DNA of 54,946 bases. Source: Gammaproteobacteria bacterium. GTDB lineage: Bacteria; Pseudomonadota; Gammaproteobacteria; Enterobacterales; Psychrobiaceae. Positions 51,940-54,946 of this stretch are shown piece after piece. The stretch lies in contig JABSRT010000028.1 in NCBI GenBank assembly GCA_013214945.1, forward strand, positions 1-54,946. Reading direction: 5' to 3'. Each line of letters opens with the position of its first letter. Position 1 is the first letter of the stretch. A program made the position numbers and the translations under genes. The notes under the pieces are model-generated. The model did not search any database, was not told where the DNA came from, and saw nothing but the letters and a program-made list of their open reading frames with translations.

Positions 51940-52716
51940 TTAACCTAAATCTAATTGCTGCTTGACCCAGCTCAAACTGTCTAGTGGCACATTAGACCAA
52001 CCAAGCCGCTGACAAACATCACGAAACTCGTCATCTATCGGTGCTTCGATTGCAATTTGCTGTCCGGTCACCGGATGAACAAATTGCAATTGTGCGGCAT
52101 GTAACATTAAGCGTCGATAACCAAAATGTTCTCGTAAATAACGATTTTGCGCGCCATCACCATGGGTAGTATCACCTAAGATTGGGTGGCGTAAATGCGC
52201 TAAATGTCGTCTTAGTTGATGTTTTCGACCAGTCTGTGGCGCTAGCGCAATTAAGCTAAAGCGCCCTGCCGGATATTTACCAATTGGCTGTGGAAATTGT
52301 GCTACTGCGATATTGGCCCAGTGAGTTGTAGCCTCTTGCGGGGCTTTATCTTGCTGAGCCTTCTTGTCGGCAATTTTGTCCAGTTGCTCTTTTAACGCAT
52401 AATCAAGCCGGTCTGCACCTTCGAGATAACCTCTAACAATCGCAATGTAACCTTTGTAAACAAGACGCTCATTAAACAGGTCGTTGAGCTGACGCGCTAT
52501 CTCGCTCGATAAAGCAAACAGCAAAACCCCAGATGTCGGGCGGTCAAGTCGATGGATCGGATAAACATATTGGCCAAGCTGATCGCGCAACATGATCATT
52601 GCAAAATGTGTTTCTTTGCGGGCCAAATAGGTTTTATGCACCAACAAACCTGACGGCTTATTTATCGCTACCATGTATTGGTCTTGATAAAGAATTTCTA
52701 ACGGTTGCTCAAACAT
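51940..52716 (-). CDS. truC: tRNA pseudouridine(65) synthase TruC
   Basis: RluA-family pseudouridine synthase that modifies U65 of tRNA in E. coli, 258 aa from ATG at 52716. The start overlaps the yqcC stop (TGATG). The catalytic Asp lies in YPIHRLDRPTSGVLLFA. Other family motifs are AINKPSGLLVHK, QTGRKHQLRRHLAHL and GDTTHGDGAQNRYLREHFG. The yqcC-truC pairing is as in E. coli. Confidence 0.96.
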   Translation of the reverse strand: MFEQPLEILYQDQYMVAINKPSGLLVHKTYLARKETHFAMIMLRDQLGQYVYPIHRLDRPTSGVLLFALSSEIARQLNDLFNERLVYKGYIAIVRGYLEGADRLDYALKEQLDKIADKKAQQDKAPQEATTHWANIAVAQFPQPIGKYPAGRFSLIALAPQTGRKHQLRRHLAHLRHPILGDTTHGDGAQNRYLREHFGYRRLMLHAAQLQFVHPVTGQQIAIEAPIDDEFRDVCQRLGWSNVPLDSLSWVKQQLDLG

Positions 52717-53042
52717 CAATCGTTAACTGCAAACAAAGCATCAAGCTGAGCGATTAAAGCCAATAAGGTAGCAGTGTCAAAAGGGACCTGCTTAAACGAC
52801 TCTTGTGCCATCGGTAAAATTAACAATTTATCAGGTAAGGGTAAATCAGAAGCTACCAGCATGCCCATTTTTGGCAACAAGATAAATTCTAACCACTGGG
52901 CAAACGTTAAAGTATCGCAACAAAAAGGTTCAGCGCTGCGCAATGCCTCTTTGGAAGGCATGGTACTTTGCCATAAATCTAATCGGATCATTTCTTTATT
53001 TATTTGTTCTAAAACTTGTTCAACCTGCGCTGCTTGTGACAT
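52716..53042 (-). CDS. yqcC: YqcC family protein
   Basis: Small cytosolic helical protein (DUF446), 108 aa from ATG at 53042, which has GGAA at good spacing. A TTG at 53054 is the only upstream alternative. Conserved features are LDLWQSTMPSKEALRSAEPFC (given as about residues 22-42) and FAQWLEFILLPKM. Function is not established. It is co-transcribed with truC, as in E. coli, where csrB lies just beyond. Confidence 0.93.
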   Translation of the reverse strand: MSQAAQVEQVLEQINKEMIRLDLWQSTMPSKEALRSAEPFCCDTLTFAQWLEFILLPKMGMLVASDLPLPDKLLILPMAQESFKQVPFDTATLLALIAQLDALFAVND

Positions 53043-53075
53043 CTTAATTTCCAATTATTAATAGAAGCGAATATT

Positions 53076-53233: not shown

Positions 53234-54274
53234 GTGGATAATATCAACTCTATTAGTGAATTTCTGTTACAAGCAGGCAGCCAATATCGAATTTTTGATA
53301 TGGGACGTCGAGTTCAAAAAATATCAACTGAGTTATTTTTAGATTTTGAACATGGCAATAGCCCCTACCCTTATCCCATTCAGCAACATGCCTTAGTTGC
53401 CGTGCTGTTTTGGAATAAAAACCAGAATGATAATCACTATGTGTGGTTTTTAAAATTGCCACTTGATGAGCAGGGATTATTAATGCAGGGGGCCCGTAAC
53501 CAATTTTTAGAATTGGTCGTCACTGCATTAGGCAATAGCATGCAGCAGCAACCGGATAAAGAGCAACAATCGGCGTTGGATCATAATCCGTTAATCTTTA
53601 AACCGTCGGAGCAAAAACTTGCCGCGTTCACCAGTCAATCTCGTTTGGCGATGGAATTACCTGCCAGCCAGTATATGGCTCCGGCGTTAAGTTATTTAGC
53701 GGATAAAGCCAATTATCAACAGTGGCAAGAATTAGGTTTTCAAGGCTTAGCGGATATTGCTAGCCGCTTAAATGAAAATGATAATCTTGATATTGTGGTC
53801 AATGCTATATCGTCGCTGCCAGCCGAATCCTTTTGTGCCTTATGTTGTTGCTTAGAAAACAGTTCCATAGATCAGCACTTAGCCACTAAGCTATTAGAGA
53901 TCCTTAGCGATGCGTTAGCAACCAACAACATCAGTATTGCTATTCATGCTTTAAGAGCGCTATCACATGCAACAGATCTATCTCAGCAACGAGCAGCATT
54001 ACAATTGGCCCTAAACAGCGAGCTGATTAAAGAGCAGCTTGATGTTGTGGTTATCTTGGCTGCTCGTTATTGGGCGGTATTAAACACCACTCAAGCCGCT
54101 GTTAGTTATTTAGAAGCCGTGGTTGAAGTTAGCGCTGAACCTGATGTTTTTCACCAATTATTTGGTGATTTGGTTACAATCCCACAGACCAGAGTCCATT
54201 TTTTAAATGCGTTACGCCATCCGCATCGCAGTAATAAATTAGCGTCAGCGATTGCTCTGTTAATTGGTGGGTAA
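53234..54274 (+). CDS. DUF3549 family protein
   Basis: Cytosolic protein of 346 aa of unknown function. The N-terminus, ISEFLLQAGSQYRIFDMGRRVQKI, is characteristic of DUF3549. The C-terminal half is alpha-helical and repeat-like (about 150-340), resembling a HEAT or TPR scaffold. The start is GTG at 53234 without an obvious ribosome site. It is followed 6 nt later by the DUF3301 gene. Confidence 0.87.
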   Translation: MDNINSISEFLLQAGSQYRIFDMGRRVQKISTELFLDFEHGNSPYPYPIQQHALVAVLFWNKNQNDNHYVWFLKLPLDEQGLLMQGARNQFLELVVTALGNSMQQQPDKEQQSALDHNPLIFKPSEQKLAAFTSQSRLAMELPASQYMAPALSYLADKANYQQWQELGFQGLADIASRLNENDNLDIVVNAISSLPAESFCALCCCLENSSIDQHLATKLLEILSDALATNNISIAIHALRALSHATDLSQQRAALQLALNSELIKEQLDVVVILAARYWAVLNTTQAAVSYLEAVVEVSAEPDVFHQLFGDLVTIPQTRVHFLNALRHPHRSNKLASAIALLIGG

Positions 54275-54280
54275 ATAACT

Positions 54281-54589
54281 ATGTCGTTAATTGAAATTAT
54301 TGCTTTGCTGGCGCTGGGTTTAATTGGCTGGCTGTTTTGGCAAACCCGCTCGATGGCCGAATTAGCTAAAAAAGCAGTCAATGAACATTGCGACAAATTC
54401 AGCTTACAGCTATTGGCCATTGCAAGAATAACACTTAAACCTTCGCGTAATAAGCGGGGAAACTTTTGTTGGCGAGCGACTTATCAGTTTGAATTTAGCA
54501 GTGACGGCGACAGTTTATATGTCGGTTATCTGGTTATTAATGGTGACATTATCGTTAAGATCGATACGCCGGTTTATCGCCAAGCTTAA
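54281..54589 (+). CDS. DUF3301 family membrane-anchored protein
   Basis: Small protein of 102 aa with one N-terminal membrane helix (about 4-21, LIEIIALLALGLIGWLFW) and a cytosolic domain with LAKKAVNEHCDKFSLQLL and WRATYQFEFSSDGD. This is typical of DUF3301. Function unknown. It is co-directional and closely spaced with the DUF3549 gene, and converges on csrB. Confidence 0.88.
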   Translation: MSLIEIIALLALGLIGWLFWQTRSMAELAKKAVNEHCDKFSLQLLAIARITLKPSRNKRGNFCWRATYQFEFSSDGDSLYVGYLVINGDIIVKIDTPVYRQA

Positions 54590-54605
54590 TCATTAAAAAA
54601 GAACA

Positions 54606-54946
54606 ATAAAAAAGGGTACGGCGCTTAGCGTCATACCCTTGATAGTTCTGCATAGTATCGAGCAAATGAATTGCTGTAACTTCCTTTGCACGGTCACTCC
54701 TTAGAACCCTCCCCTTACTACATCCTGTAGCCAATCCTTCTTTGCTATCTAGCAAGTCCTTTTCGTCCACGAATGTTAATCTTCCTTGATTAACAGCAAC
54801 ACATCCTGTGTTGGTCCTTGCCCTATCCTTAGGTGTTAATCTTACCGATTAACTTCAACACATCCTGTGTCGGTCCTTGCCCTATCCTTAGGTGTTAATC
54901 TTACCGATTAACTTCAACACATCCTGTGTCGGTCCTTGTCCTGTCC
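54606..54946 (-). ncRNA. csrB: CsrB-family sRNA, 3' part (continues past right edge)
   Basis: On the minus strand about 18 GGA triplets occur between 54640 and 54946. Several sit in hairpin loops of the form ACACAGGATGTGT or CTACAGGATGTAG, close to the published high-affinity CsrA site RUACARGGAUGU. Others lie in AAGGA/AAGGAC linkers between stems such as GTTAATC/GATTAAC. Units of 59-60 nt repeat from 54774 to the right edge. An intrinsic terminator closes the 3' end. In E. coli csrB lies between yqcC and syd, and here it follows truC-yqcC with two extra genes between, so synteny agrees. Expected role: sequester the translational regulator CsrA. The promoter and 5' end are outside the window. 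Confidence 0.88.
54607..54640 (-). terminator. csrB intrinsic terminator
   Basis: AAGGGTA (54612-54618) pairs with TACCCTT (54634-54640). The inner stem GGCGC/GCGTC closes a TTA loop after one mismatch. The A-run at 54608-54613 becomes the U-tail on the minus strand. No T-run follows on the plus strand. Confidence 0.88.

Follow-up and report, generated by a model that had tools for sequence, protein, structure and literature searches.

The window analysed here, a whole stretch of 54,946 nucleotides, ends in a repetitive sequence rich in GGA triplets on the minus strand, and the question is whether this sequence specifies an RNA that captures CsrA and, if so, what else such an RNA might do. 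A sequence-only reading had taken it for a CsrB-type CsrA-sponge RNA cut by the window edge. This interpretation was supported and is the best one for the locus: the minus-strand feature is very probably the 3' part of a tandemly amplified CsrB-type sponge RNA, which would be transcribed and bound by CsrA.

The GGA-rich RNA at the contig end

The features of the RNA that lie outside or encompass its repeats are the following.

54604..54946, minus strand: putative CsrB-type CsrA-sequestering RNA, 3' part (Rfam RF00018, 18 GGA, fold z of -5.7), its 5' part being beyond the contig end
54604..54639, minus strand: intrinsic terminator, GGGUAUGACGCUAAGCGCCGUACCC and then a U run, the 3' end of the RNA (sequence, fold and end of the covariance-model match)
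54718..54730, minus strand: CUACAGGAUGUAG hairpin, CsrA-site-like, outside the array (hairpin count)

The covariance-model check that had been suggested held in part. RF00018 (CsrB/RsmB) matched the minus strand with an E value of 6.7e-10 and over all 356 model positions, but the 44.2 bits obtained with this truncated copy lie below the Rfam gathering score of 71 bits. The plus-strand match to RF02376 (SR1; E of 0.99) was taken as chance.

The estimate of about 18 minus-strand GGA triplets proved exact, 18 being counted in 342 nt (54605-54946). Dinucleotide shuffles of this segment (2000) contained a mean of 10.4 and a maximum of 17 triplets, below the observed number, and base shuffles (2000) a mean of 8.96 and a maximum of 18, equal to it. 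Elsewhere in the window, the background per 342 nt showed a mean of 1.86 and a maximum of 9 (5426 counts, in 20-base steps on both strands). Eight of the 18 triplets were located in stems of at least 4 pairs, compared with 12 of 22 in Escherichia coli CsrB under the same rule, and the predicted fold gave a z score of -5.7, with none of 100 shuffles as good. Of the CsrA-site-like hairpins, of which at least four had been reported, four were located: three copies of ACACAGGATGTGT (54917-54929, 54858-54870 and 54799-54811) and one of CTACAGGATGTAG (54718-54730). The corresponding ACACAGGAUGUGU and CUACAGGAUGUAG elements are similar to RUACARGGAUGU, given as the SELEX consensus (PMC3856055). The U-tailed terminator was also recovered, as a hairpin at about 54614-54638 followed by a minus-strand U run and paired in the fold; a simple terminator scan did not have it among its calls.

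Judged by its anatomy, the RNA would work like CsrB. It would be transcribed leftwards, ending at the terminator (54604-54639), and would offer CsrA dimers a large number of GGA sites, some of which lie in hairpin loops, so that CsrA bound by the sponge would be drawn off its mRNA targets. GGA-rich RNAs of this family are described as sequestering CsrA (PMC3856055, PMC7652899).

Tandem modules, contig break and neighbouring genes

The repeats had been described as modules of 59 to 60 nt, in agreement with the period found by Tandem Repeats Finder (59 nt, 2.9 copies, 92% matches).

54774..54946, minus strand: tandem array with 2.9 copies of the 59-nt CsrA-site module, left open by the contig end (Tandem Repeats Finder)
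54881..54939, minus strand: module copy 1 (alignment, pair counts)
54822..54880, minus strand: module copy 2, one base off copy 1 (alignment, pair counts)
54763..54821, minus strand: module copy 3, diverged, with GGA in the loop of the second hairpin (alignment, pair counts)

Every 59-nt module consists of an AAGGAC linker and three hairpins, which in copy 1 follow in the order ACACAGGAUGUGU, GUUAAUC/GAUUAAC and CCUAAGGAUAGG. The loop of the second hairpin lacks GGA in copies 1 and 2, and carries it in copy 3 and in both modules of a related genome, G004. When these five modules (three from the window and two from G004) were compared, 98.8% of 82 cells in the module helices were paired, and both sides had changed in 5 of 17 pairs. 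The covariation score was reached by none of 500 shuffles, and controls in which the helices were slid remained at or below 49.3% paired; on one of the five covariation measures, further pair types, all 500 shuffles did at least as well as the modules. The suggested recent amplification holds; two copies stand one base apart, and the third is diverged. The claim of a greater regularity than in E. coli CsrB holds as well, since at the same setting the latter gives no tandem-repeat call. CsrA sites have very probably multiplied in this lineage as a module of about 59 nt was copied in tandem, each copy presumably adding about three GGA.

The alternative that the region is non-functional or coding, and not a regulatory RNA, draws on its repetitive character, on a promoter lying out of view and on a frame of 71 aa that crosses the 3' part and whose best tblastn match, in a set of six, was a weak one in G004 (34.5% over 55 aa, E of 0.002). 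Stops were found in all three sense frames, the module length of 59 is no multiple of three, and a coding repeat was rejected. The helices covary, there is a terminator and a match to the RNA family, and four other members of the genus have a similar element on this flank; this alternative is highly improbable.

The sponge RNA is cut at a contig end: contig C28 of the genome (G000) is covered by the window from end to end, so that the truncation ascribed to the window edge is that of the contig. The array probably runs on beyond this point. Its repetition is the likely cause of the contig stop, given that two relatives are also broken inside arrays, with a contig of G008 beginning within an array of 64-nt modules and a run of 124 N in G002 standing beside modules of about 124 nt.

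The missing 5' half was sought in the rest of the assembly. A palindrome search of the genome returned the sites of two small Csr RNAs and two one-mismatch sites, the latter without a GGA-dense stretch; the assembly lacks the UvrY/GacA palindrome and promoter that would belong to the csrB copy of the window. A BLAST search of the genome with 701 bases around the csrB of G004 matched the window contig only. The ends of all 58 other contigs (700 nt each, with C54 to C59 entire) contained no csrB-like 5' half. A loose filter for GGA or a palindrome passed 11 of 115 end loci, and neither these 11 nor the start of C11 nor that of the window itself was csrB-like on reading. At the end of contig C33 (L170), the final part appeared by eye to be much richer in G+C, possibly a join to foreign DNA.

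The genes to the left of the RNA were as follows.

54281..54589, plus strand: DUF3301 gene, convergent with csrB (PF11743, 86.9 bits)
53234..54274, plus strand: DUF3549 gene (PF12069, 374.9 bits)
52716..53054, minus strand: yqcC homologue (DUF446; PF04287, 106 bits), the neighbour of csrB in E. coli
51940..52719, minus strand: truC-like pseudouridine synthase gene (PF00849, 111 bits)

The yqcC homologue is 1.5 kb from the RNA, and both it and the truC-like gene lie at most 2.7 kb away, with two genes between. In line with the earlier reading, csrB of E. coli was found next to yqcC, between this gene and syd. The expectation that syd would adjoin the window's csrB failed: syd and queF (the latter named from its E. 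coli-like place) are in the interior of another contig, and this adjacency was rejected. DUF3301 is present in seven of the nine genomes of the genus, and csrB lies on the same side of it in G002, G004, G005 and G007; in G001, DUF3301 is not beside csrB. E. coli CsrB and the RNA of the window have in common GGA sites in hairpin loops, an intrinsic terminator and the yqcC-truC neighbourhood, and they differ in that the former (369 nt, 22 GGA) has no tandem array whereas the latter has amplified 59-nt modules. The CsrB-type assignment is backed by the family match, the covarying GGA hairpins, the presence of yqcC and the truC-like gene nearby, that of csrA in the genome and the location of the relatives' csrB behind a palindrome.

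csrB in the genus and in other families

Nine genomes of the genus, including that of the window, were sampled, and its family was represented in the sample by no other genus. csrB with a readable 5' part was available in six of them (G001, G002, G004, G005, G007 and G008), the others being the truncated copy in G000, G003, where no csrB was found, and G006, where the contig ends 106 nt past the palindrome. For lengths and GGA counts, the start of csrB was placed 185 nt after the first base of the palindrome.

G001: 355 nt, 11 GGA
G002: 981 nt (124 of them N), 45 GGA
G004: 484 nt, 25 GGA
G005: 525 nt, 29 GGA
G007: 529 nt, 30 GGA
G008: cut at 365 nt, 16 GGA

The gene therefore measures 484 to 981 nt in four genomes and 355 nt in one, and is cut in another, the largest copy (981 nt, including the N run, with 45 GGA) contrasting with the 369 nt and 22 GGA of E. 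coli. Against RF00018, two of the six relatives gave matches at an E value of at most 0.1 (42.4 and 26.4 bits) and four gave none, so that no copy examined in the genus formally reaches the gathering score.

A UvrY/GacA-type palindrome, of the type TGTNNGAGATNTCNNACA, was found upstream of all six csrB, and a palindrome of the same pattern precedes csrB in E. coli. Every one of the nine genus genomes contained the pattern, whereas the reversed control was absent from all of them; the palindromes at G004:C123 and G002:C6:169777 had no GGA-rich stretch behind them. In the scan, a -10 hexamer was located 172 to 174 nt past the first base of the palindrome in G001, G004 and G008, while weaker matches at about 175 to 178 nt were seen by eye in G002, G005 and G007. 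For their part, six small Csr RNAs of the genus showed a -10 at 163 to 174 nt. In E. coli the palindrome lies 174 to 191 nt before csrB, a spacing that supports the start predicted for the genus. The 5' domains showed pairwise identities of 0.73 to 0.82 (0.90 for G005 and G007), a single shuffled pair giving 0.73.

Small Csr RNAs were observed in the genome of the window at C11:6217-6432 (L002 1501-1716) and at about C11:28705-28903 (L062, about 1688-1885), some 22 kb apart; of the two, the Rfam family search reported the former alone. Both resemble csrB in having a palindrome 171 to 174 nt before TATAAT, GGA repeats and a terminator-like end, and differ from it in their size of about 200 nt and in lacking the csrA-complementary box treated below. 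In G001:C1 (L214, about 1501-2250), two small Csr RNAs seem to be consecutive, the second behind the palindrome-like TGTGCGATATATCGCACA.

Large Csr RNAs are not confined to this genus. In other families of the order, clustered GGA triplets numbered 55 and 62 (f2), 43 (f25) and 33 (both f11 and f12), and uniqueness of a giant CsrB to the genus was therefore discarded. In f2 (G009 and G055), the RNAs are also of the CsrB type with tandem GGA modules, their 55 and 62 triplets extending over 700 and 801 nt (L067 1512-2211 and L068 1729-2529). They scored 78.5 and 81.1 bits against RF00018, above the gathering score, although G009 reached 70.8 bits, just under it, in another scan. Their module of 51 to 52 nt, in 10.8 and 12.6 copies, is unlike the 59-nt module of the window, and they contain no csrA box. 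This array was taken as an independent amplification, and, the modules being different, arrays of this kind seem to have arisen by tandem growth on more than one occasion. The third f2 genome searched, G034, yielded two Csr matches, both elsewhere, and an assembly break is possible there. At L009 1214-1826 (G053), 43 GGA in 613 nt overlay a Csr RNA match, and no tandem repeat was called. In Pseudoalteromonas fuliginea, three Csr RNAs, Pf1, Pf2 and Pf3, with 25, 21 and 9 GGA motifs, have been reported and predicted to pair imperfectly with a few mRNAs (PMC11882849); in contrast to the CsrB of the genus, neither tandem modules nor a conserved complement to the csrA leader is described for them in the accessible part of that paper.

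Complementarity between csrB and the csrA leader

The more surprising feature is a complementarity to csrA mRNA in the relatives, beyond the view of the sequence-only reading. The longest string common to the six csrB genes was GATTGACCCC, and the longest common to eight csrA leaders of the genus was the 13-mer CGGGGTCAATCGG, of whose core GATTGACCCC is the exact reverse complement. In these eight csrA genes, the first base of GGGGTCAATC stands 34 or 35 nt upstream of the start codon. The invariant 10-nt complement was thus present in six of six readable csrB and in eight of nine csrA loci, the ninth being a phage-like copy; this copy, on G000:C54, was left out of the eight leaders, and G006 gave no csrA match. 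The complement was met while the relatives' box was being sought in the genome of the window, and was not a planned test. In that genome, the pattern of the 10-mer plus ATT occurred, with up to one mismatch, in ten places, the only Csr-linked one being the csrA leader; one exact match lies in a gene that is presumably rsmJ. The visible part of the window's csrB contains no box and matches the csrA leader by complementarity over 8 nt at most.

The genome of the window carries csrA on C2 and a second csrA-like gene on the short contig C54 (L198 883-1065). The latter matches phrog_9500, a CsrA-like regulator, and its neighbours match phrog_846 and phrog_286; it is probably a phage-borne CsrA, and its leader is without the csrB-complementary box.

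These findings raise the possibility that the full-length RNA of the genus, besides its role as a sponge, pairs with csrA mRNA, an addition to the best explanation to which we give an even chance. Specifically, GAUUGACCCC of CsrB would bind GGGGUCAAUC, whose first base is 34 or 35 nt upstream of the csrA start codon, and would lower or change CsrA synthesis; the duplex may in some species include a further stretch that covers the start codon. This detailed form is equally balanced between being right and being wrong.

The exact complementarity between a string common to the six csrB and the core of one common to the eight leaders argues for such pairing, as does the sharing of the box by 5' domains that are otherwise poorly alike. 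The 10-mer, like the 13-mer, was absent from the csrB of other families (0 of 34 loci in 23 genomes, some loci overlapping) and from their csrA (0 of 30 loci in 29 genomes; two further csrA matches had no locus in the comparison). Across the 563 kb of DNA compared, a total that counts overlaps, L073, L079 and L044 were the only places beyond the csrB and csrA of the genus with the 10-mer or its complement. G001 (13 nt), G005 (10 nt) and G007 (10 nt) carry, immediately 5' of the box, a complement to the csrA start region, in an order that fits one antiparallel duplex, and the 13-nt stretch of G001 was reached by none of 300 shuffles. In five of the six genomes the best predicted CsrB:csrA duplex surpassed 297 or more of 300 shuffled leaders, and in all six it paired the box in register, 10 of 10 nt. 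In controls, complements measured 6 to 8 nt in six small Csr RNAs from the genus and 8 nt in E. coli, whose CsrB lacks the box of the six relatives, and 6 to 10 nt, in line with shuffles, between csrB and csrA of other families. The last figure comes from 22 genomes, each represented by a single csrB locus; a 23rd genome that had a csrB match, G034, was excluded.

Other results speak against pairing. With the box alone, a complement of at least 10 nt was reached by 13 to 26 of 300 shuffles in G002, G005, G007 and G008, and two genomes of other families also attained 10 nt (equalled by 3 and 7 of 100 shuffles). In G008, 53 of 300 shuffles paired as well as the real leader, and foreign csrA leaders, represented by 29 of the 30 other-family loci, did so in G002 (3 of 29) and G008 (8 of 29). 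Accessibility of the box was ordinary on both RNAs and gave no support, and, both sides being invariant, no covariation was seen. In G001 the start codon remained unpaired in the best duplex, so that the 13-nt stretch is not used there; in G004 the stretch lies on the wrong side of the box for one duplex, and none was listed for G002 or G008. Within the genome of the window, the second csrA-like gene is without the box and the 5' domain of csrB is absent from the assembly.

DNA recognition would predict the same conservation as RNA pairing, given that neither side varies. The 10-mer might thus be a DNA site for an unknown protein, placed in opposite orientations downstream of the csrA and csrB promoters. 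Invariance on both sides suits this idea, and TTGACC resembles a -35 element, followed by eye 17 nt on by GATATA (G005 and G007) or GATATT (G001). No -10 at this spacing was seen in G002 or G008, and TTGACC as a promoter was rejected for lack of fit in these two genomes. Furthermore, the box is no palindrome; its flanks are common on the csrA side (C and GG, 13 nt in total) but not on the csrB side; GGA hairpins lie upstream of the csrB box, within the RNA predicted from the palindrome; and the anti-start-codon stretch stands beside the box in three genomes. We consider a DNA site unlikely.

To return to pairing, the stretch matching csrA mRNA in the relatives means that the RNA may act on the CsrA protein and on its production. 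Judged from sequence, the CsrB of the genus may be two-armed, with a GGA array that sequesters CsrA and an invariant GAUUGACCCC seed that pairs with the csrA leader, a proposal in which we have middling confidence. The seed, 65 to 100 nt from the predicted 5' end, would pair with the leader at a site adjoining a GGA and a GGAG, both of them possible binding sites for CsrA. Most simply, high CsrB would lead to less CsrA synthesis; alternatively, bound CsrA might be guided to its own mRNA. That such a two-armed CsrB, its seed lying in some species beside an anti-start-codon stretch, controls (most simply represses) CsrA synthesis or guides CsrA is as likely as not.

CsrB and CsrC are presented as sRNAs that bind and inhibit a regulatory protein, in contrast to base-pairing sRNAs (PMC7652899). 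The literature covered, consisting of titles and abstract openings with few subscription journals, held no mention of CsrB:csrA mRNA pairing or of a tandem-array CsrB. Short-read assemblies can break within sponge RNAs of the tandem-array kind. Because CsrA-site modules have been amplified repeatedly, nature also provides variants with which the tuning of sponge capacity can be studied. If the conserved csrA seed is true, protein sequestration and base pairing would be joined in one molecule, and the loop on CsrA would be closed at the level of its synthesis.
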